Below are positions 17,642 through 59,719 of a DNA stretch of 64,000 nt, piece after piece (positions within the stretch are counted from its first letter, which is position 1; each line of letters opens with the position of its first letter). Made by a program: the position numbers and the translations under genes. The notes under the pieces are model-generated. The model was not told where the DNA came from and did not search any database. It saw nothing but the letters and a program-made list of their open reading frames with translations. Source of the DNA: Hyaloperonospora brassicae (taxonomy: Eukaryota > Oomycota > Peronosporomycetes > Peronosporales > Peronosporaceae); NCBI GenBank assembly GCA_947650285.1, contig CANTFL010001448.1, forward strand, positions 310,001-374,000. Reading direction: 5' to 3'.

Positions 17642-17992
17642 CTAAGTAGAGAGCGTGTTCACTTCGGCTACCAGACAAGAAGCTCGCATGAGCCGAAATT
17701 TCTCCCTAATGTTTTCGGCAGCGCCGTCCACGAGCGTCGTACAGTCGGGCATGTCGGCGCTATGCAGCATCTCTTTGCACGCTTTGCTCTTGCACATTGC
17801 GTGTGTTTCGTTTTGCGTCGGCATCGAATCGAACGGGAGCAGCACATATCCCGACTCGTCCGCGCACTCTTCCGATATCGACTCTAGAGGAATAAACGCG
17901 AAGCTCAGCGTCGTCTTCGCACACTTCTCGGCAGCGACGAGGGAGCCCAAGGCAGCAGCAGCAACAACGGTGATAAACGTGACTGGTTTCAT
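17642..17992 (-). CDS. Elicitin-like secreted protein
   Basis: 116 residues from the ATG at 17992. The frame is open 45 codons further upstream, but this Met starts a classic signal peptide (about 1-21, hydrophobic core, cleavage near VAA/EK). The mature part has six cysteines (24, 43, 67, 72, 84, 106) spaced C-x18-C-x23-C-x4-C-x11-C-x21-C, which is the elicitin pattern of three disulfides. Elicitins are oomycete-specific sterol/lipid-binding secreted proteins, some of which trigger plant immune responses. The first and fourth spacings are shorter than in canonical elicitins, so this is a diverged elicitin-like member. The C-terminal tail after Cys106 is only ten residues, so there is no room for a GPI-anchor domain. 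Confidence 0.75.
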   Translation of the reverse strand: MKPVTFITVVAAAALGSLVAAEKCAKTTLSFAFIPLESISEECADESGYVLLPFDSMPTQNETHAMCKSKACKEMLHSADMPDCTTLVDGAAENIREKFRLMRASCLVAEVNTLST

Positions 17993-19309
17993 GCGCGGAA
18001 CACCAAACGACGTGTGGAAAGGTCTGCGGATTGAAAAGTGCGAAGGATGCCGCGATGCGATGAACAGCGGCAATTTGTGGCACGTTACCAACTGGATAAA
18101 CACTCGCCATCGATGCAAATCGCACAAAGACAGCTGTCGAAATGGTGCTTAGCTGACTCTATGAATCGTCAAGCCCGAAAGCCACAAAAGCACATGCTAC
18201 AGAGCTTTACTCGATCAAGTTTGGCATGCGAAACCCATGTGCTTCCACGCATACTACGCGCAATCAGTTCGCGTAGTTGCCAATGCGTTTCCAGTGACTG
18301 ACCTCACCAGACATTTGCACGCGGATTTTACCAGAGAACAGCCGACTCCAAGAAGCCCAATGTGTGCTGACAAGTCAGTCGCGAGTCAGTCACGAGTCCT
18401 TCTTGTCATCCACGTCGTTAACATGATAGCAGTCGTGTCATAAACGTTTCCTCTCTCTTCTTCGCGGTCGACTTTCTGTCAGCTTATACCGCAGCGTTGC
18501 GGTTTCTCCGCTGCTACGGGAACCACAAGTGTTTGCTCTGTGCGCATCCATATGTGTAAAACTAAGCAACTTCGATGTACAAACGACAGCCGTTGGCGAG
18601 ACATTGAGACAATGTGCAGATCTTATCGTGCCAGCCAAACCAAACCCAAGCGCCTTTACCCTCTCAGAGCCCAAAACGTGTCGATTCCACGACATTGTCG
18701 TCACTCGCGCGGCAGCCGTTCGTCCGACTTTCCGGCGCAGGTCAGAAACGGCGCATTACATACGGACCGTGTGCCGCAGAGCCGGCGCTATCGGACAGTC
18801 TGTGGATAATCCACTACGTTGTACACGTTATGGCGTTGTGAGTGCCCATACCGCAGCGCTGACCAGACGACCGAAGGTCCGGTTTGGTCTGATTGTCGAC
18901 CATATGGTGCTCTCATAAAAGCGCTCGTCGTGCACGTGCGAATCGACTTTGTGCAGGTGGTAAAGCTGTCTCCATGCAAGCACAAGAGAGACTCCATACA
19001 TGTCTGCCTACATAACGCGCCTCGGGGACGGCGTAAGGCGCCGTGTTGGTGAGGCTATTCAGCTCGATCTCGGTGCGAGGTACTCCTGGCACTCCCATTG
19101 CATCGCTGCCTCATGCAGTAAGGAGGAGACAGAAAATCGGTTGATATGGGCTGACAGCCTTTGACCCGCAGCAGGGCTCTTGACGAAGATCGGTCCGTAG
19201 CTAGCGGATGGACCGCTTAGTACAAACGTGGTAAGATGAGAAGTGAGATTGATGTTCGTCAGCTTGATGTGCTACTTCGTCCCTTGCGCAGGCAGATAAG
19301 GCCACCCGT
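17993..19309. other. Region upstream of the elicitin-like gene
   Basis: Nothing recognised. Open frames around 18529-18918 overlap in three phases and show no motif. The stretch should contain the elicitin-like promoter and ends at a solo LTR. Confidence 0.4.
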
Positions 19310-19778
19310 CGTAACGGGGTGAGCCCGTCACATAAAAATTGGTACGAAAGTACCAATTTTGAATATTATCTATTTTGATAATATTCAATCAACATCACTC
19401 GAGAAAAGCGAAGGTGTCAAAATTACCTCTAAGGGTAATATCCGTGGAGGGGTCCACTTCTTGGTTGATGTACACGATACATCAACCAATTTAACCACCA
19501 ATCGCTGCTAGACGCGCGCAATGTGTGGTGGACAGAAGACCCACATAGGAGATAGTAGTTGAATATAGTTAGATTAAGACAAAATATGATTTAGTAAGAA
19601 ATATAACCATATTAAATAACAGTTCTACTTTTCCCTCAAGACAGAGCTTTCGGGTTCTGCGTTGTCTTGGTTGCGCTTCCTCACGCCACGTGTACGTGAC
19701 GTCGGGCGTGCGCACCCTTGTATTGTTATAAATACAAGGCCTTGCTCAGTTATCTCAGCAAGAGCGTTCCCCGTTACA
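19310..19778 (+). repeat. Solo LTR with perfect 5-bp target duplication
   Basis: 469 bp, starting CGTAACGGGG (the usual TG mutated to CG) and ending CCCCGTTACA. CCCGT lies directly on each side (19305-19309 and 19779-19783). It is related to the LTR at 39244 and to the LTRs of element 2. It contains long perfect hairpins, for example arms of 11, 10 and 12 bp in its first 200 bases. It is the product of LTR-LTR recombination that removed the internal region. Confidence 0.8.
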
Positions 19779-20149
19779 CCCGTCCCTTAGCATGGCAAGA
19801 ATGTGAGATCTGCTTCTGAGTAAAATGCTCCGTTAGCTGCGAGCTGCACTGCAACATGTGTTTGATGACGTCAAGACGTCGTTCAAGTATCTCAAGTTTC
19901 ATACTTACTACTACCGCATGCTTCCTTGCGGATTTTAGGGAAATTTGCAAAAGACGCATACGGTATCAGAAAGCATGTCAGAATGGCTTAAACATGGAAA
20001 AGGAAAGCGGTGAGCGCGGTCTATCTATCTTGTGTGTCCTTGCCGATACAATACGGTTGAACGTATGGACGAAGCCAAGTGACGTTTTGGGGTGGCCATG
20101 GACCCGACCTATCGATCTGAACAAAAGTGTAATGGATTAAACCTGTTTC
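19779..20149. other. Non-coding stretch
   Basis: No gene or recognisable element domain. An open frame at 19856-20140 has no motif. Confidence 0.35.
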
Positions 20150-20339
20150 ATGTCATTGCACTTATTGTGCTAATTTAAATTACACCTTTTAAATAATATT
20201 TAACGATATTACTCTTGCGAATAATTATTGATGTTATATTACCTTAAGAGGTAATATTCGGCTTTGCTTCACAATTGATTGGTATAGGCCATTATTTCAA
20301 CCGAATAATTTACCCAATTGACGCTAGACGTGCGCAATA
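20150..20339 (+). repeat. Old LTR fragment interrupted by element 1
   Basis: It aligns by eye with the solo LTR at 19310: the same order of an ATTACC...GGTAAT hairpin, a GGTTGA-like stretch, and the conserved GCTAGACG(T/C)GCGCAAT box. It stops at the left end of element 1. AT-rich sequence after 28050, including a TATAAAATATAAGG-like stretch, could be its continuation. Element 1 is thus nested in an older LTR. Confidence 0.5.
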
Positions 20340-20879
20340 TGTAACAGGGTACCACGTCGACTGGTAGTCGACGATAGGTGTGGTGCACACAAGAGAGGGG
20401 GGGGGTACCCTGTAAAGTGATATTAGAACACAGTAAGTGTATCAATTGTTGAAGACTGATGTCTGTCAACAGTTGAATACGAAATCTTTTGAGAGGTTTT
20501 ACTTAGAACGTTAGTGACTAGGTCAAGTACGTTGTTCTATAGTGTTCTTTTAGGTTTAAAGAAGAAATAAAGCTCAGTTCCCCTTTTGATCAATAAGAGA
20601 CACGTGCCTTACGAGGCGTCTTTGATAGGGAGGACGAAAGCACCGCCTGTAAAGGTAGCTTGTCCTCGAGCACTCTGTGCTGTGATTCTTTTGAATCGTT
20701 TGGTCCCTCAGGAACAGGGACCGTAAGCTCTCTGAGCTTGTTGAATCTCTGAGTCGGGTTCTCTGAACCAAACCTTAGCTCTCTGAGCTGTTGACTCTCT
20801 GAGTCGGGTTCGTAGAACCAAAGTTGCTCATTTTGCGTAAGTCTTCCTCTGACTTAAGGAGCTGTGTAGCTCCGCTACA
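20340..20879 (+). repeat. 5' LTR of element 1
   Basis: 540 bp, TGTAACAGGG to CTACA. Nearly identical to 27515-28050 with roughly twenty differences, including a G run of nine (20397-20405) against five in the other LTR. Confidence 0.9.
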
Positions 20880-20897
20880 CTTGGTAGCACTCATACT
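20880..20897 (+). promoter_or_regulatory. Primer-binding site of element 1
   Basis: Starts right after the LTR with CTTGGTAGCAC. The TGGTAGCAC core is shared with the same site in element 2. The leading TGG pairs with a tRNA 3' CCA; initiator Met tRNA is the usual primer, but this could not be checked. Confidence 0.55.
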
Positions 20898-20937
20898 CAA
20901 TCTACTCCTGAGTCGTTACGACTGATTTTTTGTGAAG

Positions 20938-21861
20938 ATGGAGCAATCCACACCCATCACTGAGGCCCAAAAGGTCGCGCTTGATAAGCTGACCGCGGCC
21001 GTGGGCCCAGAATATGTGGAGTATCTAGGTGCGCAAGGTCCCGATGTGCTAAATGCACGAGTCGAGACCTTCATGCAGTATGAAACGGCCCTGTTGGGCC
21101 AGGTTCAAAACCGAACAGCGTCGGCTATGCCGACACGCTACGTAGCTATGCCACCAGAAGAGGCTAAGCCTCGTCCCCTTCGAGTGGACGTTAAACATTA
21201 CTCCGGGAAGGAGGGGAAAAATTTGAATCTCTGGATCCGTGAGATTGAGATGGCCATGGACTCTGGTCTCATCTCACTTGAGAACCAGCGGGTCTCGTTG
21301 GCTCTTTTTAAGCTCTATGGAAGAGCTAGAGAGTGGGCTTTGACGTGTGGCACGTCGGTCAACTTGGCATTTCCCACGTGGGAATCGCTCAAGGTAGACG
21401 TCTTGCGAGTTTTCTCGCCGCCTAACCAGGCATATTGCGTGCGCTCACGCCTCTTGTCCACCCGTTTGGGTAAGAACGAGTTAACGGACTATGTCCAGGA
21501 GTTGAGAACTCTGATGGCTGCCATGCAGTCCGACCCTCTCCCTGAGACTGTCTACGTGACAGTCTTTATGGAAGGTATTCTCAATGGCGTTGCCAGGACC
21601 GAGGTCTTTCGAGTCCATCCCTCGACTTTTGAAGAGGCTGTGAGCATCGCTCAGAATGCTGAGCATTACTTTAAGGCAGCAAGACTTGGTTGGAATGGGT
21701 ACAGCCCAAGCTATGCGAGAGCAACCTCTACAGGCACTTCGGCTTACTGTAAGCCAGAACCGATGGATCTCAGCCATGATGAAGATATAGGCGAAGCGCA
21801 GCTTCATGTCGTGGAGCAACGACAGGACGTGAAACGCTGTTACATGTGCGGAAGCACTTAA
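20938..21861 (+). pseudogene. Element 1 Gag (capsid and zinc knuckle), truncated by a stop
   Basis: 307 residues from the ATG at 20938. The middle has the retrotransposon Gag fold signature (KHYSGKEGKNLNLWIREIEM, then F-x-x-P-x-x-x-x-x-x-R-S-R-L). The C-terminal CCHC knuckle begins CYMCG, but a TAA at 21859-21861 falls inside it; the remaining His and Cys codons follow in frame. Gag forms the particle and binds RNA. The stop would remove the RNA-binding knuckle, so this copy cannot make normal Gag-Pol. Confidence 0.8.
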
Positions 21862-22082
21862 CACTTGCGTCCCACTTGTCCTTTGCGTAAGCAACGACCG
21901 ACACCTATGGGTCGAAACCCCAGCCTCAACCAGAAACCTGGTATGGCACGGGGAAACGTCGACACCCAGTAGGCGCGGGGCGCCCTACTGGGGTAGAACT
22001 GAGTTCTGTCACTTCTCTACGAGGTAGAGCAAAACAGGGCTTAGCCCCACAGAGCTCCGTGCCAGCAAGCACAGATCGTGGA

Positions 22083-22535
22083 TACAAGCCTGGCTTGTTA
22101 GTCGCCGAGGCGATATTTAAAGGCTTTGAGAAGCATTAGTCGATCCTAATCGACTCCGGAGCATCATGCAACTATGCTAGACGTCGTTCCCTTGAGGGGA
22201 GTCAGCAATATGCTGACGCGATTAAAGCGCATGAAGATGATTCGATCACTGTTCGGTTATCGACGGGTAGTCGCGTTACTGTGACTAAAGTTTCGTTGAA
22301 CTTGGGCGTGAAGTTTTTGGACTTTGATAGCACAGAACGCTGTCTCGTCCTTGTATTGGATTCGAGATATGATCTCACCCTAGGCATGGACTGGCTTGAA
22401 CGCCATGAACCATGTATTGATTGGAGGTCTAAGACCTTCGGCGCAACGCGCAATGTTCCTAGTGAAGCTTTGGATAGTCATGAACCCACCTTTGATAGGC
22501 AACAAAAGCGCTATTGGCGCGAGCCATTGACGTAA
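22083..22535 (+). pseudogene. Element 1 aspartic protease
   Basis: The catalytic DSGAS motif is intact at 22152-22166, preceded in frame by a TAG at 22137. It is followed by RLSTGSRVTVTKVSLNL and LGMDWLERHEPCIDW, the typical end of a Gypsy protease domain. The frame closes at 22535. The enzyme normally cuts the Gag-Pol polyprotein. Here it is separated from Gag by several stops. Confidence 0.75.
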
Positions 22536-23134
22536 GATGTCAATGTGCTGGACATTGGTATGTTAGAGTTAATTATCTCCAATTTCATTGACATGAAAGT
22601 TGAGCGGAGCTCATTCACCGTATGTGAATGAAGCTGTACTCCATTGAGTGATACTCGTTGTAATAATGAGTTACTGCATGCGCCAAGCATGGTTAGCCTA
22701 CGGCCGAGTCATCCAGGAAGTAATTCCCATGATGTAAGTGCAATGGCACGTGAAATTCCACAGAGTGAGAGCGGCCGTGATGGCACCTCACTGAATGTCG
22801 GTAAGGACATTGTTGGCAAACAGCCAGATCATTCAGGGCAAGGTCCATATGCGGTACGTGAAGTGGTACGTGTTAATATACTGGGTGAAGTGTTCGAGTT
22901 ACATAACCTTTCACCAGATGTTGCTCAAGACATGAGCTCTCATATCGAGCGTGATATAGCAAATAGCAACTTCAGGGATTCTACTGTCCCGACCTCTAGG
23001 AGGCGTAAAGTTTTTTTGAGGAAACAATCACGGCGTCGGGTGGCAACTGTTAAGCGCCAGACGTCCGAGGTGTTAAGGCGTGATAATAGTAATAATACAC
23101 TATGTCCAGTTGAAAATGGAATGAATGACCGGCC
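22536..23134 (+). pseudogene. Element 1 protease-RT linker
   Basis: Mostly open but with stops; a frame at 22644-23147 has polar, low-identity sequence with no domain. Its position matches the variable linker between protease and reverse transcriptase in chromoviruses. Confidence 0.45.
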
Positions 23135-23797
23135 ATGTGGATGGTAACATTAGTCTTGAGACTCTTGGATACTTTCTTTGAGCTAGACGAAATGTCTGAT
23201 GGCGAATTCAGCCAAGCCTTGCAGGCCGGAGAGCTATCCGATCTAGTGGTCATTCGACCCGATGTTGAGTTGAGCTCTTCCTCGTTATTGGACGAGTCCG
23301 TCCTCGAGGGTACAAAGGCGACACTAAGTTCGCGTAGTAAATCCGCGATCCTTAAGAATCCTTTTGATCCGTTATATCCTTTGGTAAAGGAATTTCAAGA
23401 CGTGGTGTGTAACGATCCGCCGTCTGCCTTACCTCCGGATGGAGGTGTACGTCATGAAATTGACTTGGTTCCTGGAGCTAAATACTGTGTAACGCGGCAG
23501 TGGACTTTGCCGAAAGAACAGTGTGACGTCATTGACGACTTCTTTCGTGCAAAGCACGCGGCAGGAATGGTACGTGAGAGCAAATCTTCCCATTCCACAC
23601 CGATATTCTGTGTCAGAAAGCTCAACGGGAAGTGGCGCATTGTTCATGCTTACAATAAGCTTAATGCTGCCACGATCACGGCTCAGACACCAATCCCTAG
23701 GAAAGATGCCCTTCAGAACAATATGGTGGGATGTACAATGTACAATGTACAGTTCACTCGACTTAGTCGATGGTTATTACCATTTGCTCATTCGTGA
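23135..23797 (+). pseudogene. Element 1 reverse transcriptase, N-terminal part
   Basis: Holds the entry to the RT domain: [37 protein letters not shown] and TPIPRKD. The frame is lost at a 7-bp tandem duplication (TGTACAA units at 23732-23750), after which the RT continues in another frame. Confidence 0.85.
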
Positions 23798-25211
23798 GAA
23801 CGATATTCCGCTGGCAGCGGTTAGTATTCCGAGCGGTATGCTCTGGGAGTGGCTAGTCATGCCACAGGGCTTGTCAAACGCTCCAGCTACGTTCAATCGT
23901 CTTGTGACACAATTGTTCAGACCTCATAGAAGTTATGCACAGAAGTTCTTTGATGACATTTTTGTCCATAGTCGTGCTATGAACGGCCGGTCTGATGTGG
24001 ATAATCACATCGACCATTTACGAGCAGTGCTCGAGTGCATGCGCACAAACAAGTTGTATGCCAACGCCTCTAAGTGCATATTTGGTGCACAAGAGATTCC
24101 CTTTTCAGGGTGCTTAATTGGGAAGCGTGGTCTAAGAGCGGATCCCGCTAAGATTAAAGCCATAGTCGATTGGCCGGTTCCTAAGAACCAAAAGGACTTA
24201 CGTAAGTGGCTTGGTCTTGCCAATTACTTACACATATATAGTGCGAACTATGCGGATATGGCTCGACCATTATCCAATCTCCTTAAAAAGGATGTGGAGT
24301 GGTGTTGGACTAGCACCGAGCATGAAGCCTTTACGGCTATTAAAGAGAGTATTCTTCATGCGCCATTCTTGGCTTTGCCCGATCCTGATCGGCCTTTCAG
24401 TGTCGTCTGTGACGCATCTGACTTTGCCATCGGCAGTGCTCTGTTACAAACAGATGATGATGGACGGGAACGCGTCATTGCGTTTGAGTCCCGACAGCTC
24501 AAAACAGCTGAGAAGAACTATCCAGTTCATGCCAAAGAGCTACTCGCGATGAAGTATGATTTGGTCAAACTCAGAGTTCGTCTTCTTGGCTCTAAGACTT
24601 TTGTGATCTTTACAGATCATGCGTCTTTACGCACTGCGACCCAGTCGCCACAGCCCTCTCAGAGAATGGCTCGTTGGCTCTCATTCTTTGATGAATACAA
24701 CTTCGAGGTGAAGTACAATTCGGGCAAGCAGAATGCTTTGGCTGATGCGTTGTCACGTAGGCCTGACAATGAGCTTGCTCATGTTACGACTCTGTCATCA
24801 CCGGTCACTGACCTCATTCGTTCGGCATATGCCAAGGATGAACATTGTATAGCTTTGCTACGTGCTCTGGGAAGCGAGGAGTTTAACGACTCAGACATTA
24901 AATTGTCGGCACGTTTGCGTGCGAGGATACATCGATATTCCATCGATCAAGGCCTGTTGATCTATAGCACAGATATGGAGTATACCCCTCGCATCGTTGT
25001 CCCCCATGATGAGGAATTGAAGTATCGCATCCTCTATAAGGCGCATGATACTGCGGTGAGCGGTCATCTCGGTCGAGAAAAGACACATAGCTCCGTGAGC
25101 CAACATTATTGGTGGCCAAAACTTTTACAAATGGGTAAGCACATACGCGCGTACGTGCGAAACGTGTCAACGGGTAAAACCCTCAGCGCATGCGGCTGCG
25201 CCGCTCGCTAG
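23751..25211 (+). pseudogene. Element 1 reverse transcriptase C-terminal part, RNase H and integrase N-terminus
   Basis: A long intact frame. The RT active site is FFDD (23946-23957; Y-x-D-D family, Phe variant). RNase H follows with VVCDASDFAIGSAL, KELLAMKY, FTDHASL and NALADALSR. The integrase zinc-binding start (KAHDTAVSGHLGREKTHSSV, with HxxxH-type spacing) ends at a frame break near 25170-25211. These parts normally copy the RNA and remove the template. Confidence 0.85.
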
Positions 25212-25827
25212 TCTTCCTATACCCTCTGGGTGCTAGGAGTTTATCAGCATGGACTTCATGTTCGGTTTGCCGAAAGATGTACAAAGCATTACGGGTATTG
25301 TGGTCTTTGTTGACCGTTTGAGCAGGATGGATCACTTGGCGGCTGTGCCAGATACCATTAATTGGTGAAGGTACAGCTACGCTGTTTATCGATCGAGTGT
25401 TTCGACAACACGGTTTGCCTGTGGCAATTGTCTCTGACCGAGACCCTCGCTTCACTGGGAAGTTTTGGAAGTCCATCCTCAAGGTGCTCGGCCTACATTT
25501 GGACATGTCCACGGCGGATCACTCGCAGACCGATGGTCAAACCGAGCGAGTCAATCGCGTTATCGGTGACATATTACGCAGTGTTTGCGCTGAAACGCCA
25601 AAACGTTGGAGTTCGATGCTCCCTGTTGTTGAGTTGCGTTGAATAACGCTGTTCACGCCTCTACAGGCTTTACTCCGTTCTACGTGAACGGTCTCACACA
25701 CCCTCGCGTTCCGTTGACGCAACCACTTCGTGGTTCAGGGCTTGGTGGGGGAGGAGTTGCCGATCGGCTTGCTGATATCAGCCCTGCTACTGTTTAAAAA
25801 CAGGTAAGCGAGTTTCTCGCAGCGCGA
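25212..25827 (+). pseudogene. Element 1 integrase core, heavily broken
   Basis: Fragments of the DDE core appear in alternating frames: SMDFMFGLPKDVQ (first Asp), VSDRDPRFTGKFW (second Asp) and TDGQTERVNRV (Glu), followed by a NNAVHASTGFTPFYVNG-type segment. Stops and frameshifts separate them. A short A/T run and a TTTAAA lie near 25795. Confidence 0.75.
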
Positions 25828-26525
25828 TTGAATGTGTTACGACACGTGCGTGATGCACTGGCTGATAGACAAGATGGACAAAAGGAACAAGCTGATGATA
25901 ATGGTAGAGGTTGTGTTGAACGTTATAAGGATGAAGACCAAGTTCTACTCAATGCTAAAACCCTACCGACAAATGTAGTGTCTGCCGTCTTCAAGACAAA
26001 GTTGCGTCCGCGCTCCATCGGGCCATTAGCGGTCGTTGCTAAAAAGGGATTGACGTACACGCTCAACCTTTTGCGTAAACTGCGCACGCACCCAGTACTC
26101 TACGTTGGCTTGCTTAAGCCGTATCGGGACCCGTCCCATGTGAACTCGGAGGCGCTTGCGCCGGGTAATAGGGCCTTGCCGTCGACTTTTGCATCCGAAC
26201 CAGGAGGTCAAGCTGACCATCCACACGGGCTAAGGCCAACTCCAATGCTTGAACACGGGCTTGCACCGAGTCGAGCGCACTCTGGGTCTTACCCAATGTA
26301 TCACGGAGACCACTCAGCTCAAGGAGGACCTTCTCATGCTCCTCCTTCGGTACCCCGACCACCACCAACGCTGCTCGATGAGCAAGGGAACTACCAGTTC
26401 CATGTGGAGAAAATCCTTCAGCGACGTCGTCGTCGTGGCCAATACCAGTATCTGGTGAAGTAACGAGGGTATCCGGAGAACTCGTGGGAGTATGAGATAC
26501 CCCTTCGGCAGGACTGCCCGTACGC
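25828..26525 (+). pseudogene. Element 1 integrase C-terminus and chromodomain
   Basis: The segment LRTHPVLYVGLLKPY is the usual end of a chromoviral integrase. A proline-rich linker follows, then a chromodomain starting NYQFHVEKILQRRRRRGQYQ and breaking at a TAA (26461-26463) where the conserved aromatic residue should be; RGYP and NSWEYE follow in frame. Chromodomains direct integration to marked chromatin. The same DNA is open on the other strand (antisense frame). Confidence 0.75.
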
Positions 26526-27408
26526 CGTGAATGTATTTGAACATCGTGGTTAGGGTCGCCTCGCGAACGAAAACGCTTCTCACCAATAGTGGTGGGAGGT
26601 AGCGTGTTGCTCCGCACCTTAGGATCGTGACCCATGGTTATCATCGTAGCCGGAGCATAACGCGTACGTGTACGCAACTGGCCTCTGGCCTTGAGCTTGA
26701 CGTACTCGAACCGGAGCTTCCGTTCCAGACGAACGTCAGCCACATCGGCGCTGGCCCGCAGCGCTGACACACTGCTAAGATGCTGCTTGCGGTACGCTTA
26801 ACGGATGAACTGATTGTCCTCCTCCTCAGGCAGTTCGCCAGCGAACAACAAGATGGGCACGCCCTTTATCGGTCGAGCCGAAACACCACGAGATAAGCTC
26901 TCAAGATGCATGCGGTACTGACCTTGTGTGGTCAAGTACGGTTCGAGATATCTCTAATTTAGAGCATTGCGATAGGCGATATCTTCTGGCGACGTAGCCT
27001 CTGGGCCAATGGCCCATGTTAAAAGGCTACGGCCATCCGTTTGACGGAGACGTTGCTCCACGTCTGGTGTTGAAAACACGTAACCACTTCGGTTTTGAAT
27101 AACCGTCTGGGTATGAGTGCGACGTAAAGCACGCTCCTCAAGCTGACGGATTAGCTCCTGTTGCTTGTCGAGCGGGTTCGTGATGATGTTCTCATCTACA
27201 TATGTGGTATGATGCTGCGCCCCTGGCGCTGTGGTCACATACGTTTAGCGAACGAATTCGGTGCTGTTAGAGGTCCAGCCTCAGATACAGCGGAGTGGGA
27301 CGATATCCCGTCATCTCCAGGGACACTGGTATCACTACCATAGTCCACATCCTCATTAAAGTCGAGGTAGGAGATAAGAGTCCGAGACTCGTTGGGTGGT
27401 GATGCCAT
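26114..27408 (-). pseudogene. Element 1 antisense reading frame with coiled coil
   Basis: An ATG at 27408, 107 bp inside the 3' LTR, opens an acidic/Ser-rich start (MASPPNESRTLISYLDF). A frameshift near 27240 leads into the main frame, which runs to 26114 with in-frame stops near 26954 and 26800. The end has a heptad-rich coiled coil (about 26310-26160, EKVLLELSGLRDTLGKTQSA). It overlaps the chromodomain and linker antisense. Element 2 has a counterpart in the same place. I do not recognise the protein; it could be an accessory protein made from an LTR-driven antisense transcript. Confidence 0.5.
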
Positions 27409-27502
27409 GGTGTTTCGTGTTTAGCAACCGTGAGGTTAAGCGCACACACACCGACCTCTTCGAGGAAAGAAACCGATTGACGTTTTGTGGTAACGTCAGT
27501 CT

Positions 27503-27514
27503 GGTGGGATAGGG
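27503..27514 (+). promoter_or_regulatory. Polypurine tract of element 1
   Basis: A purine-rich GGTGGGATAGGG directly precedes the 3' LTR, as expected for plus-strand priming. Confidence 0.5.
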
Positions 27515-28050
27515 TGTAACGGGGTTACACGTCGACTGGTAGTCGACGATAGGTGTGGTGCACACAAGAGAGGGGGTACCCTGTAAAGCGATATTAGAAC
27601 ACAGTAAGTGTATCAATTGTTGAAGACTGATGTCTGTCAACAGTTGAATACGAAATCTTTTGAGAGGTTTAACTTAGAACGTTAGTGACTAGGTCAAGTA
27701 CGTTGTTCTATAGTGTTCTTTTAGGTTTAAAGAAGAAATAAAGCTCAGTTCCCCTTTTGATTAATAAGAGACACGTGCCTTACGAGGCGTCTTTGATAGG
27801 GAGGACGAAAGCACCGCCTGTAAAGGTAGCTTGTCCTCGAGCACTCTGTGCTGTGATTCTTTTGAATCGTTTGGTCCCTCAGGAACAGGGACCGTAAGCT
27901 CTCTGAGCTTGTTGACTCTCTGAGTCGGGTTCTCTGAACCAAACCTTAGCTCTCTGAGCTGTTGACTCTCTGAGGCGGGTTCGTAGAACCAAAGTTGCTT
28001 ATTACGCGTAAGTGTTCCTCTGACTGAAAAAGCTGTGTAGCTCCGCTACA
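27515..28050 (+). repeat. 3' LTR of element 1
   Basis: 536 bp, TGTAACGGGG to CTACA, matching 20340-20879. Confidence 0.9.
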
Positions 28051-51225: not shown

Positions 51226-51296
51226 CGGCGTGGTGTTCAACTTACCTTGGACGGCAAGATGCACGTGCCGTCCAAGGTAAGTTGAACACCTCGCCG
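51226..51296. repeat. Long perfect hairpin
   Basis: A perfect 25-bp stem (51232-51256 with 51266-51290) around a 9-nt loop. Five more pairs follow after one T/T mismatch (51226-51230 with 51292-51296). It lies in unique DNA between the left arm and element 2, outside both. Confidence 0.9.
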
Positions 51297-51707
51297 TTTC
51301 TCCAGAAGAACCGCCTCGGTACATTGGCACACTTGGCTGCCGACGAGGCGTTCTCTCGTCTAGCTCCGAGTTGACGGTTGCTTGTCTTTTTATGTCATAC
51401 GATCTTGGACAATTTAACAGTGCGCGACTGCATGCATAGAAGAGAGCAACACAAAAAATGGCATCAGCTTTTGTGTGACTGGGCGAGAAATATCATCGAC
51501 AAATGATGGTTTTATCTCGAAGTGGGGCTCCTATCAGACTGTGTGATGAACCAGATACGCTGAATCGGCAAAGACGCTCAGCAAATAGTTCTTTGACAAA
51601 GACCACATAGACATGCAGCAAAGAGGCAGATGTGCAGCTGAGCGTAATTTCCGACAAACTATGATACGCCTGCCTCAAGCAAATATAACGTGACGGCATA
51701 CGGGTTC
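51297..51707. other. Unique DNA between hairpin and element 2
   Basis: No supported gene. A minus-strand open frame (51777-51493) crosses into the LTR and has no motif. Confidence 0.4.
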
Positions 51708-52100
51708 TGTAACGGGGCACACCCTTGCGTGAACTTAACCCAGGGTTTGGGTGCCCCGACAGACGTACACGAGGCAAACGAGGAAGCGTAGATAAGGGAA
51801 AAGTAAAACTGTTGCATTAATATAATTCAGTCTTTCAACTACTATCTCTTTGTTTAACCTGACGTAATTATGTTAATATAACTGAGTGTATGGTGACGTC
51901 TCGTCACCACTCATTGCGCGCGTCCTGCGGCGATTGGTGGGTTGATAACGTCAAGATATCAACCAATGAGCAGACTCTTTGGTCGCCTCACCAATATCAC
52001 CACTATCGATGATATTGTTCAAAGAATATTCAACTTCATATTCTTTATTGTCATTGTTTCTTTAAAGTGACAATTCCATGTAACGGGCTGCCCCGTTACA
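51708..52100 (-). repeat. 3' LTR of element 2
   Basis: 393 bp with terminal inverted repeats TGTAACGGGG / CCCCGTTACA. Contains several perfect hairpins, for example GGTGACG...CGTCACC near 51892. Confidence 0.9.
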
Positions 52101-52111
52101 TCACCCCCCTT
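52101..52111 (-). promoter_or_regulatory. Polypurine tract of element 2
   Basis: Reads AAGGGGGGTGA on the minus strand, directly before the 3' LTR. Confidence 0.6.
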
Positions 52112-52230
52112 GACTGATAGTCACTGTGTGACTATCGAAATATGGCGGCCACCCGCTGGGCACCATTGGGACAGGAAGCACTTGTTGGGTCAGTTCCGTT
52201 CATAACTCAACCTGACCTCGCATAGTTAAC

Positions 52231-53783
52231 ATGTCTATGCGGGGTGACTCAAGGCACACAGAGTCTGTGCCTGTGCCAGATTCTGCGGCAGACGATTCGT
52301 CGTCTGCTGCTCCTTCTTCGCCTGCAGCAAGCGGTTCTGCAGGTGCACGCGGTACAGCACCGCGTGCGCATGATGACCCCGACATTGAAATCATCTACTC
52401 TGGCGAGTCAGACGTGTTTGACTCGGGCAATGTTGCAGAGGCGTCTCGATCACCGGCGACGCCTCAGTATTCGCCAAGGCCACTGAAGAACGAAGGACTC
52501 GTGAGTTGCAGCACAGTCTGTTCGGCAGTGATGACGAATCTGATGATGAGTATGTTTGCTCATCACCACGATCAGCTCGTGCTTCTTGGCACGAGCGACT
52601 TGACGATGGTGCAAGCCATCATGATGCTGACAACCGTGGTATCGACAAGGGTACCACTTCGAAGCGTGATGAGATGAAGCCGTGGCGTTTGCCTGAACGG
52701 CTCATCAATAGCTTCTTTCACGAGACAAGCCAACACCATCGAATACCCTTATTCGATGCGACTGAGCTTCAACGGCTTGGATCCCAGCGCGAGCAAATTT
52801 CGCGCTGAGGAAGACTTTTATCTCGATGTCTTCCCTAGACATCGATGGTACAATGGCATCCAAAAGCGTGACAAGAACTCTCTTTTGGCTGCGTGGAACG
52901 CGTTCGTCCAAAACGTAAAGAATTTTGGACGAGAAGGGTGGCTTAAGAAAATTGAGGCAGTACGGCTTAGGTTCGAAAGGCGAACGCCAACCGATGCCAG
53001 GTACCGGTTTCATTGTTTATTAAGTGAGGCCGGCATTCCATGCCTCACTTGGGGAGACCCTTGTGCGAGTTGTGCCGACAACTCGCAACGTGCGCAGAGG
53101 GATGTGTATTCCCTCGATCTCGCCCTGGGGAAGGGCACACATCTCGGCTGAGATGCGTGATGCGATTGCAAACTTGCAATCCGTCTGACAACCGCCAAAA
53201 GCGCGTGTTTACCGATGGTCCCTTGGACCAATCGGATGAGTCTCGTCATACTGGCGGACGAGACCTTCAACATCCATCAACAGCTGAGAGCGGGGCTCCC
53301 AGCTGTTCCAAGAGGGTGGATACCCCCGCCACTGGACGAGGTAGCTCGTCCTTGATCCTGAATCGCCACGGTGATTCAAGATACGCTCCACTAGAAAGCG
53401 TTGATCACCGTGAGCATCCACCAAAGGATGTGGTGGAGGAGGAATAACCTCCTCCAGATGATTCGGTTCACCATCTCGACCCTTACGAGATGGATCGCGC
53501 AATCGATGAATTGCGCGATGACTTGAAGCACGAGCGCGACCGGCGCTACACTTTGACCGATACCATGCGGAAGAACCGCAAGGATTGCGAGGCTGATCGG
53601 GCGAGAGACCGCGTCGATCACGCCACAACGCAGCTTCAGGTCGAGCGGGATGTCTTCTCCCTATTCGGCAAGCTGGCGACAGCTCGCGGGGAGATATCTC
53701 GGTTGAGTTCCAAGGTATCATATCTGCGCGACCAGACGGATCGTCTGGAGCGCGAACGCAAGAACCTTGATGGATGTTCTTGA
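52231..53783 (+). pseudogene. Element 2 antisense reading frame
   Basis: An ATG at 52231, 130 bp inside the 3' LTR, opens a Ser/Ala/Asp-rich start (to about 52500). The frame then continues in pieces: 52506-52808, 52756-53151 and 53040-53447, and in the last frame past a TAA (53445) to 53783. Features: an acidic Ser-rich N-terminus, an aromatic/basic middle (FYLDVFPRHRWYNGIQKRDK), a Cys-rich stretch (CLTWGDPCASC, then CELC and C-x5-C spacing near 53060-53170) and a C-terminal coiled coil (53490-53783, DELRDDLKHERDRR). The last part runs antisense over the chromodomain. No family recognised; three frameshifts and one stop show that it has decayed with the rest of the element. Confidence 0.55.
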
Positions 53784-54082
53784 ACGTGGGGGCTATCTTC
53801 ATCGGAAGAAGAAGGCTCGTACTGACAGTACGGCCTAAGCTTCCCCACGTAAAACGTAGGATGCGTGCGCATCTTACGTGGCAATTCGATCGTGTATGAA
53901 TTGCCCTTGCGGTGTAACACACGAAATAGGCCGATGTATTTTGGCAGTAGTAAACTACTGCCGACACTAGTGACTGCATGTCCAGGTAAGTTTACCGTAG
54001 ACAGTAGTAATAGGTCGTTAACCTTAAATGATAGAACATTTGCTCTTCCATTCTTGTCTGCGTTCCGTTTCTGACGGTCCAC
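53209..54082 (-). pseudogene. Element 2 integrase C-terminus and chromodomain
   Basis: MRTHPTFYVGKLRPYCQYEP (about 53865-53805) ends the integrase. After a frameshift near 53640 the chromodomain reads FLVERILNHRGDSGSRTSYL, then VQWRGYPPSWNSWEP, with the conserved aromatic residues intact. It is followed by about 30 residues to a stop at 53209. Confidence 0.8.
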
Positions 54083-55156
54083 CGCAGTTGCGTTATGTCC
54101 TGAACGAAACCTACTACCGCCTCTCGAGCCATCAGGAAGGTATCTGATGATTCATTGTTGTGTCTTTCAGTGCGCTTCGTGCGCACTGCTAAGAGATCGT
54201 TCTCTATTTTCAACGAGGTTGTCTTCGTCCTCGATGGCGTAGTCGTTGACGATGCTGAATATACCAGCATCGTCATCATCATCCGAATCAATAATAGCGT
54301 CATCGCTATTATTGAGGTGATCTTCTTCACCGATGTCGACCTGATCGACATCGGCATCATAAGTGACGACGTTAGCGTCGACACGTGATGAGCAAGAGCC
54401 AAAACGGTTTTTGCTCGAGCGAGTCCCTCCCCCCTTATCCAAGAGTCACACTCTATAAGGGTGGGCACTCGTGGATGGCGTAGGCCATTCACGTAAAATG
54501 GTGTGTGCTGTGTGGAAGCATGCACCGAATTATTGATGGCGACTTCCACCATGGGTAGGAATTCGCTCCAACTCGGAAACAAGTGGACATATCCTCGACG
54601 GATCTATTCGAGGACACGGTTCGCACGTTCCGTCTGACCATCTGTTTCTGGATGGTCTGAAGTGGACATCTTCAATCGTGTTCCGAGAGTACGGAACACG
54701 GTTTGCCAAAACTGCCGCCATGAACCGAGGGTCACGGTCGGATACGAGTTCACGGGGTAACCCGTGGAGTCTAAAGACCGTGTCTAGAAAGACACGAGCA
54801 CAACCTTGAGCCTTGATCGACTCAGGGACTGCAGCAAGATGGACCTTCTTGCTGAATCGGTCAACAAACACAAGAATACCAATGTTCTTGTGAGCGTCGT
54901 CGGGAAACCCGAAGACGAAGTCCATGGAAACGGACTGCCAGCACTCTGTCGGAACAGGCAGAGGCTGCAATGGCGCACGGGATGAAGGACTAGGCTTCAT
55001 CCGTTGACAAACCTCGCAAGCACGTATGTACTTGCGGACAAACTGATACTGGCGGGGCCAGTAAAAGTCACGACTTACCGTTAGGTAAGTCTTTTCCCTT
55101 CCACGATGGCCGCTTGTTGGGGCATCGTGGCACTCATACATGATGCGCAAACGCAA
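54083..55156 (-). pseudogene. Element 2 integrase
   Basis: The zinc-binding start (CHDAPTSGHRGREKTYLTV and CEVCQRMKPS, an HHCC type) is intact, followed by SMDFVFGFPDDAHKN (first Asp) and LVSDRDPRFMAAVL (second Asp). The frame then breaks near 54700, so the Glu region is scrambled. AINNSVHASTQHTPFYVNGL resumes at 54540. A Asp/Thr-rich insertion at 54440-54160 is unusual and rich in short hairpins. Confidence 0.8.
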
Positions 55157-56001
55157 ATCATGATGAGCGAGTACGACGACACGAGGCGTGTCACCGCAAC
55201 AGCTGTATAGTACAGCAATCCGTTGCGTGTACTATGCCGATCCGATGAGGATCGGTACAAAGCCGGTAAATCCCTCATGGATTTACTGGATGGATTCACG
55301 AGATGATCCATCAATCGCAGAAGATCCTTATCTTCCGCGTATGCCTTTCGTACGTCGTCAAGTAAACTTGACGACGGGACACTGACTGACAGTGTCGCAA
55401 CAGTGGGCTTATCCTCACTGTTGAATTGTGCGTCCGCCTCGAAATCGGGCCGGCGCGAAAGCGCATCAGCGACGACATTGACTCGTCCTGGTTTATACTC
55501 GACGGAGAAGTTGTACTCCGCGAAGAAAGACAGCCACCTCGCCATCTTTTGCGAGAGGTGTGGACTGTTTACGGCCGTGCGTAGTGAAGCATGGTCCGTA
55601 TAGACGATAAACGGTCTATCTCCCAAGAGATAGACCCGAAACTTAGCCAGTGCGTACTTCATGGCAAGGAGTTCCTTGTCATGCAATGGGCAATTGGATT
55701 CAGCTGACTGCAGCTGACGCGACTGATAACAGACGACGCGCTCCGCGCCATCTGCATCAAATTGCATTAACGCACAGCCGATTGCAAAATCGCTGGCGTC
55801 ACAGACCACATGAAATAGTCTGTCCTGATCTGCAATCGCCAAGATCGGCGACTGCATCAAGCTTTGCTTGATACCTTCGAAGGAACGCTGACACTCAGCG
55901 TTCCATGACCATTTGACATTTTGCTTGAGTAACCAAGAAAGATGAACATTCATACCGGCGTAGTTGCGAAAGTACTTATTACAAGTACGCCGCTTGTCCA
56001 A
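55081..56001 (-). pseudogene. Element 2 RNase H
   Basis: 306 open codons: FHVVCDASDFAIGCALMQF, CYQSRQLQSAESNCPLHDKE, LLAMKYALAKFRVYLLG, YTDHASLRTAVNS and VVADALSRRPDF, all typical of chromoviral RNase H. The first part continues the RT thumb. The frame differs from that of the RT piece upstream. Confidence 0.85.
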
Positions 56002-56098
56002 GGAACTTCCTTAGTCCCTTGACATCGACTGGCACTGGCCAGTCGGTGATCGCCTTGATCTTTTCGGGATCAGGGCGTACGCCGTGTTTACCCACGAT

Positions 56099-56838
56099 TC
56101 ACCCAAGAGGTGGTATTTCGCTAGCCGCGAATATACACTTCTTGAGGTTTGCGTTCAACTTATGCTTGCGCATAAGTTGAAGGACTTGACGAGCGTGAGT
56201 TCTGTGAGCTTCAACGTCCGTCTTTCCGTCCATAGCCCGGCTATGGACGAACACATCATCGAAGTAACTCGGTGCGAAGTCTCGCACCGGTCTCAACAGA
56301 TTTGTAACACATCTGTTGAATGTTGCAGGGGCATTACTCAGTCCCTGTGGCATCACTAGCCACTCCCACAACATACCGCTGGGGGTGCTCACTGCTGTGT
56401 ACGGGATGTCCCCTTCACGCATGAGGATCTGCTAGAATCCATCCATCAGATCCATGGACGAAAAGATGGTACTCTTTGACATACCATCTATGATATGATT
56501 ACGTCCTTCCTCGGTATCGGCGTCTGAGCCGGTACCGTTGCAGCATTCAACTTGTTAAACGCGTGCACTATCCGCCATCCTTCTATGTTCTTTCGCACAC
56601 AGAAGGTCGGAATGCAGTGAGGGGATGTCGATTCCCTCACATGGCCCGCTGCTAAGCGATCGGTAAAGAACTTGTCGATCGCTATCACTTGTTCACGAGG
56701 CAGTGGCCACTGCTTCATGACACAGTACTTCGAGCCCGGTTTGAGCTCGATCTCGTGTCGAGTGCCTTTGTCCTTAGGCAACTCGCAAGGTACGTATTCA
56801 GGGAATACATCCTTGAATTCTATCAAATCCTTATACAA
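56099..56838 (-). pseudogene. Element 2 reverse transcriptase
   Basis: The N-terminal part (56838-56488) has TRHEIELKPGSKYCVMKQWP, FCVRKNIEGWRIVHAFNKLN and [11 protein letters not shown]. After a break near 56430-56490 the second part (56422-56099) has GMLWEWLVMPQGLSNAPATF and the active site YFDD (56255-56266). Both parts align closely with element 1. Confidence 0.85.
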
Positions 56839-57177
56839 AGGATTTGCCTGAAGTGACTCCCAGGATTGAGACGTCTATCGCTCAATCCAAGTCTTCTCAT
56901 CGAGGACACTTTCGTCCATCGATGAGCTGCTGAGAACCCGTTCGTTCTCAGCAAATGCTGTTGCAGACCGAATATCGGCCACACACTCGTCCTCTGTGAC
57001 GAGTATGCAGATCTGCTTGACTTTGCCACTACGCAGATCACGCAAGAACCGTTTCGGTTCTAGCGTTGGCAACTGAGTTATCTCCGAAGTCAACTTCGGA
57101 GGCACAATCAGATCAAGCGTATAAGCGCCTACGCTTGATCCGTCATTAACCAAGACGTTCAACGTCTCGGTTACTTT

Positions 57178-57981
57178 CTAAGAACTTGCTTCCACAGGTT
57201 GCTGAGGGCCTAATCCTTCAGCAAGTGGATCTTGAGGAATTCCTTGCTCAAGTACGTGGGGACTTATTCCCTCGACGTCTTCCGACTGTGGCTGTGCAAC
57301 CACAGTCAGGTACCGATTCTCTACGGTCGACTCTCCAGTCGACCTAGGACATTCGTGTTGCCCCTTGGGGGCAACAGGTTTCTTTTGTCTAAGATGCTGC
57401 CCGCTAGGCATGCATCCATGTCCCGGTCCACTCGACTTATTCGTGTGGTGGACCTTCGGCGCAGCCTGTACATCTGTACAGCCGCCGGGAGCTTGCTCCA
57501 CATTGTAGTGATCAACTACACTGTGATCTTGTGCAGTCGTGCTAACGACCGTACCGCAAGTGAGGCCATCGCACTCACTCGCAGAACATCCACACGCTTG
57601 TGGACGCTCCAAGATGAACATCAGATGGCCATCTGATGAACAAGCGGCAGGCATCTTCACGGATCGATGCTGCCAGCTCACCCTTGGCTCGTATTTTCTG
57701 AGCCAAGGTAATCCCAGGATGACATCAAATTTGTCATCCAGATCTAGTACGATGAAATCATCATCGTACTGTTCGCCCTCCAACGTGTAGTGAATTCCTA
57801 ATACACGTTTCTCAACAGTTATCGATGCGCCTGTTGCAAGGCGCACCGTCATCCTTCTGAGGGGAATGTCGCGCTCAACGAACTTGAGCCTACGACCCTC
57901 TAGTGACTGGCGACGAACAAAGTCGTTCGACGCCCCACAGTATACTAGGGCACGAAGCGACAAATCATTTGTCGCTTCCAA
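57178..57981 (-). pseudogene. Element 2 protease with catalytic Asp lost
   Basis: 267 codons. The protease start reads ALVYCGASNDFVRRQSLEG; the codon for the catalytic Asp is TAC (Tyr) at 57942-57940. LGLPWLRKYEPRVSW closes the domain. The remainder is a variable linker. In the same frame 57162-56875 continues toward the RT. Confidence 0.8.
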
Positions 57982-58109
57982 CTATAAGGTGATGAGCGAA
58001 ACGTCATCACCAGGTGCAGAGACACACAATGATTGTGTATCTGGAGCAACTTCTGTCAAGAGATTTGCAAATTCTCTTGAGGTTGCTGGATCAGTAGGGC
58101 GCTCCGCCC

Positions 58110-59264
58110 CTACTGACCTCGACCATTTTTTGATGGTCCGTTTCGCTGTTGCGGTTTCGCAACAGCGCTGGACCCACGCCCATTGCGCTTTCTGGCAAAT
58201 GGTCGTCCATTTCGCTCAGTACTGTTTGGTACTGGGCGTGGAGCACTACACTCATGTGCGAAGTGCCCTAACTTCTGACAGCGATTGCACCTCTGCAATC
58301 GCTTGCTGTTTGAAGAGCGAGGTCTCTCGCTCTCAACATAGCAGAGATCCATTGGTTCTGGACCTCCACTCTCTTGTCGTCTCGGTGGAAGGTAAGAGTT
58401 TGAGCTAGCATGAGCCTGTCTCATGCTAAAGTCTTCCTGTTCCGTGGCTGATATCGCTTCCTCAAGCGTATTCAGCTCAAGGCGGAACAGATGGCTCCTG
58501 ACGGGATCTTATGCGAGCCCTTGCATGAACACCGTAATCAACGTGTGTTCATGAACTGAGTTAGCAGTTATACTACTCGCGAGGAGTCGTATATGTTGTG
58601 CGTAAGCGTGCACATCACGCTTACCCTGCTTGAGTTTCAGGAGCTCTGAACGAGCCCTGAACTCAGCTCGTGGCGGCTCAAACGTTTGTCTGATCCGGGC
58701 CTTGAAGTCATCTAGCGACCTAAACACATTTGGGTCGCTACTCTCGAGCCACAAAGACCAAGTTTTAGTACTTCCTGCCAAGTGGGTTTGAGCAAATGAA
58801 GCTCACATTTGCTCATCTTCGACGCGACGAGCCCTTAGGGCTCTGTCGAGTTCGACAAACCACAGTAACAGGGAGTCCTCCGGGACTCCACTATACTTGG
58901 AGATGTCAACCTCCATGACCTCGGGACGACGCGCATGTGCCGTCCCGCCCACAGCAGCATGGAATTGCTGCTGTCTCAACAGCTCTGTCTGTTGAGCACC
59001 GAGTTCTCTCAACTGCTTGGCCTGTTGAGAGCCTTGCTGGTGAAGCAAGGCTACTTTTTCCCTTTCGGCGACAAGTTAACTTTGGATGAACTTGGCTATA
59101 GCGGCATGTTGTTGGTCTCTGTCTAGAGACTCCAACATGGCGCTAATGGCGAACTCGCCTACGGTAGAACTCATTTGTTCTACCGCACCCCATTCGATGT
59201 CACTCAAATGGGTAAACCCTTCACGCGTGGCGTAAAAGGTCTCTTCATCATCCAACATGTTCAT
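58110..59264 (-). pseudogene. Element 2 Gag, one frame with three in-frame stops
   Basis: Four open pieces (59264-59076, 59048-58803, 58781-58509, 58424-58110) are all in one frame, separated only by TAA, TGA and TAA. They encode a Gln-rich N-terminus, the capsid signature (DISKYSGVPEDSLLLWFVEL, then KARIRQTFEPPRAEFRARSE) and an intact CCHC knuckle (CNRCQKLGHFAHEC). Each stop could arise by one transition from CAA or CGA. Gag could not be made without readthrough. Confidence 0.85.
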
Positions 59265-59290
59265 GTTGGATGCTGTGGTCCTTGAAAGGA

Positions 59291-59308
59291 CTACAAAGTG
59301 CTACCAGG
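59291..59308 (-). promoter_or_regulatory. Primer-binding site of element 2
   Basis: Reads CCTGGTAGCACTTTGTAG on the minus strand directly after the 5' LTR, sharing TGGTAGCAC with element 1. Confidence 0.55.
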
Positions 59309-59701
59309 TGTAATGGGGCACACCCTTGCGTGAACTTAACTCAGGGTTTGGGTGCCCCGACAGACGTACACGAGGCAAACGAGGAAGCGTAGATAAGGGA
59401 AAAGTAAAACTGTTGCATTAATATAATTCAGTCTTTCAACTACTATCTCTTTGTTTAACCTGACGTAATTATGTTAATATAACTGAGTGTATGGTGACGT
59501 CTCGTCACCACTCATTGCGCGCATCCTGCGGCGATTGGTGGGTTGATAACGTCAAGATATCAACCAATGAGCAGACCCTTTGGTCGCTTCACCGATATCA
59601 CCACTATCGATGATATTGTTCAAAGAATATTCAACTTCATATTCTTTATTGTCATTGTTTCTTTAAAGTGACAATTCCATGTAACGGGCTGCCCCGTTAT
59701 A
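59309..59701 (-). repeat. 5' LTR of element 2
   Basis: 393 bp, differing from 51708-52100 at seven positions, all transitions. Confidence 0.9.
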
Positions 59702-59719
59702 AATACGACACCGTCGAAC

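Follow-up and report, generated by a model that had tools for sequence, protein, structure and literature searches.

The window analysed here, a stretch of 64,000 nucleotides from the oomycete Hyaloperonospora brassicae (GenBank assembly GCA_947650285.1, contig CANTFL010001448.1, positions 310,001 to 374,000), contains at 51708-59701 a long terminal repeat (LTR) retrotransposon of the chromodomain Ty3/gypsy type, coding on the minus strand of the window (Table 1). We found that this element is saturated with short perfect hairpins, and that the same trait is carried, to different degrees, by some of its related families in the genome. The original prediction had pointed to such hairpins in the element, and all 14 arm pairs that it listed proved to be perfect reverse complements where it had placed them. 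The prediction was right, and too modest.

Across the whole element we counted 113 perfect hairpins with arms of at least 7 bp and loops of 3-15 nucleotides, compared with 4.7 (standard deviation (sd) 1.9) in ten dinucleotide shuffles; with arms of at least 8 bp there were 81 rather than 0.9, and with arms of at least 10 bp 20 rather than 0. Using a loop range of 2-16 nucleotides and 100 shuffles, the element held 117 hairpins against 6.4 (shuffle maximum 13) for arms of 7 bp or more, and 82 against 1.7 (maximum 7) for arms of 8 bp or more. These shuffles agree with the earlier estimate that an 8-bp arm pair should arise by chance once or twice in 8 kb. When hairpins with arms of at least 7 bp and loops of 2-20 nucleotides were enumerated individually within 52107-59306, 106 were obtained, and loop lengths in the internal part peaked at 4-5 nucleotides and had tailed off at a length of about 15. 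The hairpins extend over the LTR, over gag and pol, and over the 3' part, where an opposite-strand open reading frame (ORF) lies, and this spread supports the original view that they are a property of the RNA or DNA and not of a protein. A surplus of short repeats in general was considered and rejected, as direct repeats at equal distances showed no excess.

In contrast, the shuffle comparison that the original prediction called for placed a long interspersed nuclear element (LINE) and a host ORF of the same window inside the shuffle range. For arms of at least 7 bp, the LINE at 7137-15801 had 13 hairpins against 6.6 (shuffle maximum 18) and the host ORF at 1394-5500 had 5 against 3.9 (maximum 10). 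The internal part (20880-27514) of a second gypsy element in the window, designated E, had 8 against 5.2 (maximum 11), with its gag half equalling its shuffle maximum (6 against 1.9, maximum 6). No known structured RNA was found between 51500 and 59900 on either strand, with 0 matches at the gathering score among 4227 Rfam families.

The assignment of the element to the chromodomain Ty3/gypsy class rests on its termini and its domains. The two LTRs are 98.5% identical over 391 bases and are of the TG...CA kind, the second LTR of the window copy ending in TA instead of CA. Gag, the zinc knuckle, the SH3 domain and the chromodomain were recognised in pieces of the window copy itself, and protease, reverse transcriptase (RT), RNase H and integrase were recognised in L028, an aligned copy, where they follow one another in that order; the C-terminal chromodomain of the window copy completes the arrangement. 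Oomycete chromodomain Ty3/gypsy elements share the same gag, CCHC knuckle, protease, RT, RNase H, integrase, SH3 domain and chromodomain, and it is the saturation with hairpins that distinguishes this element from the others sampled. The window copy is decayed, with pol split across several frames. No target site duplication was found at the window copy, the only one checked (5-base flanks GGTTC at 51703-51707 and AATAC at 59702-59706), and since its flanks lack such a duplication the sequence suggests that this copy may be a product of recombination between elements. The opposite-strand ORF had no Pfam match above the cut-off in the four pieces scanned; one piece (52756-53148) had 15 relatives, all in environmental contigs, at 54-77% identity over 32-94% of its length.

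Table 1. Parts of the hairpin-saturated element, in window coordinates (position 1 is the first base of the window).
Feature	Position	Strand	Basis or remark
LTR, 3' end of gag-pol strand (TGTAAC...GTTACA)	51708..52100	-	holds several conserved stem-loops; stems compared with three A2 copies
LTR, 5' end of gag-pol strand	59309..59701	-	paired to the other LTR by identity
Internal part	52101..59308		perfect hairpins, loop 2-16: arm 7+, 106 against 5.5 shuffled; arm 8+, 74 against 1.4
Gag fragment (Retrotrans_gag)	58509..58781	-	PF03732, E 9.8e-14
Gag zinc knuckle (CCHC)	58110..58424	-	PF00098, E 2.5e-4
Protease region	57178..57981	-	ORF; by reading, the probable counterpart of the L028 ORF start that matches RVP_2
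RT and RNase H, in several frames here	55081..56838	-	ORFs; RVT_1 and RT_RNaseH from aligned copy L028
Integrase region (H2C2, rve)	54530..55156	-	ORF; domains from aligned copy L028
Tf2-1-like SH3 and chromodomain, pol end	53212..54082	-	PF24626, E 1.3e-9; PF00385, E 2.6e-13
Opposite-strand ORF, in several frames in the window copy	52231..53783	+	3' part of the element; overlaps the chromodomain frame
G-rich stretch adjoining LTR	52101..52111	-	sequence read; presumably the polypurine tract
LTR-adjoining stretch with TGG on gag-pol strand	59290..59308	-	sequence read; taken by us as the putative primer binding site
Dense hairpin cluster	55266..55423		five perfect hairpins in 158 bases, including an 11-bp arm with a 2-nucleotide loop
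Dense hairpin cluster	58922..59052		five perfect hairpins in 131 bases

In order to place the window copy among its relatives, we compared 76 loci (293,207 bases, in pieces of 1 to 5.4 kb) from the 100.6-Mb genome, which comprises 898 contigs; relatives in other species were compared as proteins. A DNA search, in which the best 40 of 1985 candidates were scored, returned the window's own place and 39 others at 94-95% identity. Among 30 loci of this family, termed A, the window copy held 40 hairpins with arms of at least 8 bp per 4.5 kb and every one of the 29 other copies fetched held more, from 47 to 60. Counts were lower in diverged copies (40 in the window copy, 47 in L027, 49 in L038) and reached about 60 in the copies most alike, which differ from one another by as little as 0.04%; the full hairpin set therefore belongs to recently active copies. 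One copy, L012, is a recombinant whose last ~500 bases (4000-4494) come from an older subfamily, A2, and bring hairpins of their own; it was through this recombinant that A2, about 16% different from A, was discovered.

Twenty further RT loci revealed that the trait is graded and that family A stands far above the rest. Eight of these loci (L050-L057) match family A at 92-94% identity and had 9-14 hairpins with arms of at least 8 bp per kb, compared with 3.3-4.2 in family B (L048 and L058), 1.7-2.5 in family C (L046 and L047), and 0-0.4 in the remaining eight; RT loci L001-L008 had 0-2 in 3.7 kb each. Over the RT-locus region protein identity is 0.53 between A and B and 0.70 between B and C. 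Saturation is thus confined to some related families, being strong in A, present in B and weak in C, with E and the other sampled RT elements in or near the shuffle range. In an RT tree built with at most 60 of 120 listed homologues, from which D was excluded as it failed to align, A was separated from B and C and clustered with relatives among which Peronospora is found, and E belonged to a third cluster; the dividing branch is very short, and the tree is compatible with one or two origins of the trait. Named RT relatives among the 120 listed came from oomycetes such as Peronospora, Phytophthora, Pythium and Aphanomyces, and none was found in viral contigs.

The excess persists when the encoded protein and codon usage are held constant, as codon-preserving shuffles, another comparison proposed at the outset, made plain. 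In these and in the folding calculations families A, B and C were each represented by single copies (L028, L060, and L046 and L047, respectively). The open pol frame of L028, 1267 codons long, contains 70 perfect hairpins against 4.4 in 50 shuffles (sd 1.6, maximum 10), and about 40% of that stretch lies within perfect hairpins, loops included. For the longest frames of the others the values were 42 against 4.8 in B, 11 against 2.0 and 8 against 2.0 in C, 2 against 2.0 in D and 1 against 1.5 in L003, with the control element L005 slightly above its shuffles (7 against 2.5, maximum 6). Arms rarely grow long: 8 of 78 exceed 10 bp in A, with a maximum of 13 bp in L028, and 2 of 51 exceed 9 bp in B. 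Regular spacing in A was rejected, as the variation of the gaps matches random placement (coefficient of variation 1.03); spacing in B is somewhat more even (0.76).

Predicted folding of the RNA, which the original prediction had suggested examining, lay far beyond shuffled sequence in L028, where energies were 47% below codon shuffles on the sense strand and 53% below on the antisense strand. The corresponding sense and antisense values were 14% and 16% in B, 2.5% and 7% in C, and 7% and 8% in D, with L005 and L003 between -3% and 1%. Against dinucleotide shuffles of 350-base fragments the excess in A was 50% and 51%, and all 12 fragments of L028 reached at least 34.8%, such that energies lie well below shuffled controls along the coding sequence. 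The excess was 36% and 38% in the decayed window copy, 34% and 34% in an old A2 copy, 15% and 17% in B, 5-7% in C, 11% and 8% in D, 4% and 6% in L044, and 1% and 1.5% in the LINE; in E it was elevated (13% and 17%), though perfect hairpins there are within the shuffle range. Mean hairpin stability is alike in A (-11.7 kcal/mol) and B (-11.9 kcal/mol), the arms of B being shorter and richer in GC.

Several lines of evidence indicate that the stems evolve differently from the sequence around them. Comparing A with A2 at columns on which the three copies taken from each were unanimous (disagreeing columns were dropped), we found changes at 31 of 321 third codon positions in stems, at 31 of 98 in loops and at 102 of 519 elsewhere (stem versus outside, P = 9e-5; loop versus outside, P = 0.01). 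Third-position stem sites were equally slow whatever the codon position of their partner (0.09-0.10), with 6 of 60 changed in the small class that pairs third positions with each other (P = 0.08). The hairpins of L028 comprise 684 pairs, 202 of which were set aside; among the 482 scored, 435 were unchanged, 34 had a change in one partner and 13 in both partners, where 1.9 double changes would be expected (P = 1e-7). Compensatory change, for which the original prediction had proposed to look, was evident in that 11 of these 13 pairs were still Watson-Crick. For the non-coding LTR and the stretch adjoining it, the window copy was set against three A2 copies: changes were found at 2 of 109 sites in stems, compared with 34 of 147 outside (P = 2e-7) and 13 of 40 in loops. 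Within family A, changes common to at least three of the 29 copies, which we took as transmitted by active elements, numbered 22 over 1337 stem sites, 90 over 2577 outside sites and 25 over 460 loop sites; private changes were nearer to even (124 in stems, 289 outside, 62 in loops; shared versus private, Fisher P = 0.017). The recombinant L012 was excluded from these counts, from the copy part of the arm-asymmetry count and from the deamination count. Because third-position stem sites are slow and the LTR stems nearly invariant, the stems are, on this sequence comparison, maintained while the element is active. Deamination of the loops was considered and rejected, as private changes had no clear loop-specific excess of C to T by reading, and no significant protein cost was detected in the stems of A, where codons differ from residues on which B and C agree in 40 of 112 cases, compared with 104 of 343 (P = 0.29).

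Between the closer relatives A and A2 most hairpin positions are kept, and over the span shared by B and C, with 20 and 11 hairpins, five coincide exactly, against 0.7 expected within 4 columns; one of the five has a covarying pair in which C-G is exchanged for T-A. The hairpin at position 2956 of L028 occurs in a form lacking two pairs in seven copies, and also, apart from private changes, in two A2 copies; L014 and L015 carry a form with one pair added, and 14 copies, together with variants, have the hairpin in full. Its pairs were thus gained stepwise, through an intermediate common to two copies. The hairpin at 1575 has two one-step forms, each in one copy, for which a private change is also possible.

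We attach practically no credence to chance, base composition, codon bias or an assembly artefact as the source of the pattern: the excess stands out over dinucleotide and codon-preserving shuffles alike, recurs at all 30 family-A loci and at eight further ones among the 20 RT loci, and is conserved with compensatory changes, while neighbouring elements are inside or near the shuffle range. The original prediction had named selected structure or a copying process as possible causes. The evidence on these is mixed; we lean to selection, in view of the conserved non-coding LTR stems, the slow third-position stems, the stepwise gain at 2956 and the A-rich loops, and we give about an even chance to selection for local folding of the element's RNA. 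On this explanation the whole transmitted genome would form a string of stem-loops, short, mostly perfect and folding locally. Selection would act on folding as such and not on individual hairpins, because families differ in where their hairpins lie but are similar in how stable these are. Loops are rich in A on the gag-pol strand (0.32 against 0.24 in A, P = 6e-4; 0.30 against 0.23 in B, P = 0.02), in keeping with which loops on the window plus strand at 52107-53999 are weakly T-rich (P = 0.049). Such a strand bias implicates the genomic RNA or its cDNA, and the selected molecule would accordingly probably be the full-length genomic RNA or the first-strand cDNA. A number of observations weigh against selection on the RNA. 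Were a single RNA strand under selection, G-U should be preferred, and the absence of any such preference counts against it: G-U and A-C occur 15 and 16 times in the one-mismatch stems of A, 4 and 8 times in those of B, 11 and 8 times among fixed differences and 4 and 10 times among shared changes, for sums of 34 and 42 (P = 0.42), and G-U makes up 5-6% of predicted pairs in A, compared with 12-13% in shuffles. Both strands fold about equally well. Among the 35 four-base loops of A and B, GNRA occurs five times as read on the gag-pol strand and four times as read on the opposite one, against 1.1 expected, and UNCG is absent; special tetraloops were rejected as an explanation, the slight GNRA excess not being strand-specific. 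Among the 25 such loops of the window copy GNRA occurs once on the gag-pol strand and never on the opposite one, which has UNCG twice. All eight compensatory pairs in pol involve a first or second codon position, which is costly for structure, and the LTR stems have no double change among 51 scored pairs and could owe their conservation to something else, such as the binding of proteins. Finally, 4 of 70 hairpins of A and B lie within 4 columns of each other, no more than the 5.0 expected.

The principal rival, which we consider possible though doubtful, is that fold-back template switching in reverse transcription perfects near-palindromes and that selection on the proteins filters the outcome, with no selection for folding. 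Stems that are mostly perfect Watson-Crick and without wobble preference, strands that fold alike, an upper arm length that few stems exceed, and effects on LTR, gag, pol and 3' part alike in only some element families would all follow from it, and a published model predicts both stem creation and multi-base repair (extract of PMC8794818). The hairpin registers (31/12/27 in A and 18/13/11 in B) are not favoured by synonymous tuning alone (P = 0.001 and 5e-5), and some hairpins of B look as if one arm had been rewritten, such as that at codon 1028, where TPEL is kept on one side. One-step rewriting of several bases finds a parallel in these one-arm clusters, but one of the hairpins inspected, that at 2956, has a stepwise intermediate. 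Copying without selection, moreover, should slow neither the nearly invariant LTR stems nor third-position stem sites, which are slow irrespective of their partner's codon position, albeit with a small third-with-third class. The two arms do not differ significantly in fixed single changes (13 in 5' and 21 in 3' arms, P = 0.23), and the asymmetry that the intrastrand model predicts, G-C over C-G and T-A over A-T, is absent, A-T exceeding T-A in both L028 (171/149) and B (72/65). Selection might instead act on single-stranded first-strand cDNA or on both strands, for example by preventing long sense-antisense or cDNA duplexes, which we regard as improbable. It would explain the strand symmetry and the missing wobble tolerance; the A-C total at least equals that of G-U, an A-C in the RNA being a G-T in the cDNA, loops on the cDNA strand are T-rich, and the element carries an opposite-strand ORF with relatives elsewhere, but the surplus of A-C is not significant. 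A mixture, with copying as supplier of stems and selection as their keeper, fits these results.

If selection for folding of the RNA is correct, the benefit might be a shielding of the genomic RNA; most likely it would keep antisense or small RNA from pairing with the transcript and so prevent silencing. This is a guess, prompted by the opposite-strand ORF of the element and by analogy with genome-scale ordered RNA structure (GORS) in RNA viruses, and escape from silencing is perhaps the benefit that suggests itself first. Retrotransposons overlap most of the annotated small-RNA loci of Phytophthora infestans, according to extracts of PMC3804510, and structured viral RNA is poorly recognised in vertebrate cells, where GORS folding is thought to shield RNA from recognition (extract of PMC3950689).

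The known systems that come closest are GORS viruses, such as coronaviruses and hepatitis C virus, and the coding palindromes of nematomorphs. Like the element, the viruses have hundreds of local stem-loops along the coding genome (extract of PMC7642675). In these viruses stem-loop positions are poorly conserved and the degree of folding is kept, which is also how families A and B compare: the trait is kept while positions turn over. By analogy, the hairpin saturation looks like a far stronger version of the folding trait of some RNA viruses. We claim likeness and not membership, the element being an LTR retrotransposon and not a positive-strand RNA virus. Its folding excess of about 50% compares with 15% in SARS-CoV-2 and 7-11% in hepatitis C virus; the highest value named in the extract of PMC7642675, 23.4%, was at that time the record among vertebrate RNA viruses. 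These comparisons carry the reservation that shuffling methods differ. The element differs also in that its hairpins are short and mostly perfect Watson-Crick, fold about equally on both strands, have no wobble preference and include the non-coding LTRs.

The mitochondrial genes of nematomorphs likewise carry perfect inverted repeats within conserved protein-coding sequence, some species having gained or lost them, and for these the authors weigh repeat conversion by template switching (extract of PMC6649704). Those repeats are mitochondrial and reach 284 bp, whereas the element is nuclear, has arms of 7-13 bp at about one per 60 bases, and has stems that are conserved and compensated; long all-or-nothing palindromes of the nematomorph type were not matched, as no arm in L028 exceeds 13 bp and stems of 8 bp with one mismatch are more numerous than expected (55, compared with 12.0). 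Template-switch hairpin mutations (extracts of PMC8794818, PMC7202029 and PMC3820800) would explain perfect stems, multi-base compensation and strand symmetry, and in those extracts they are known from rRNA and microRNA genes and from bacterial and yeast quasi-palindromes, not as saturating an 8-kb element. No retrotransposon with whole-genome folding was found among the matches listed for open-licence PMC papers, at the level of titles and the beginnings of abstracts.

Other features of the window lie apart from the saturated element. Element E is a second chromodomain Ty3/gypsy element on the plus strand (20340-28050), with LTRs at 20340-20879 and 27515-28050 that are 96.5% identical; it has gag, RT-RNase H-integrase and a weak chromodomain match, and its RT is about 65% identical to that of family A. 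Outside E, three perfect hairpins with arms of 11-12 bp lie within 155 bases at 19335-19489. They account in part for a milder excess in the slice 16001-24000 (17 against 5.0; 10 against 1.2 for arms of at least 8 bp). At 51232-51290, 0.4 kb outside the saturated element, two 25-bp arms form a perfect inverted repeat around a 9-nucleotide loop. No tRNA genes were found across the window.

Whole-genome folding is known from some RNA viruses and is stronger here than in the viruses compared, given that shuffling methods differ. A single genome that holds graded related families, together with many copies of varied divergence (of which the best 40 of 1985 candidates were scored), makes it testable whether pervasive folding is selected or is written by the polymerase, as at each site, coding or not, changes that were transmitted can be set against changes that are merely decay.

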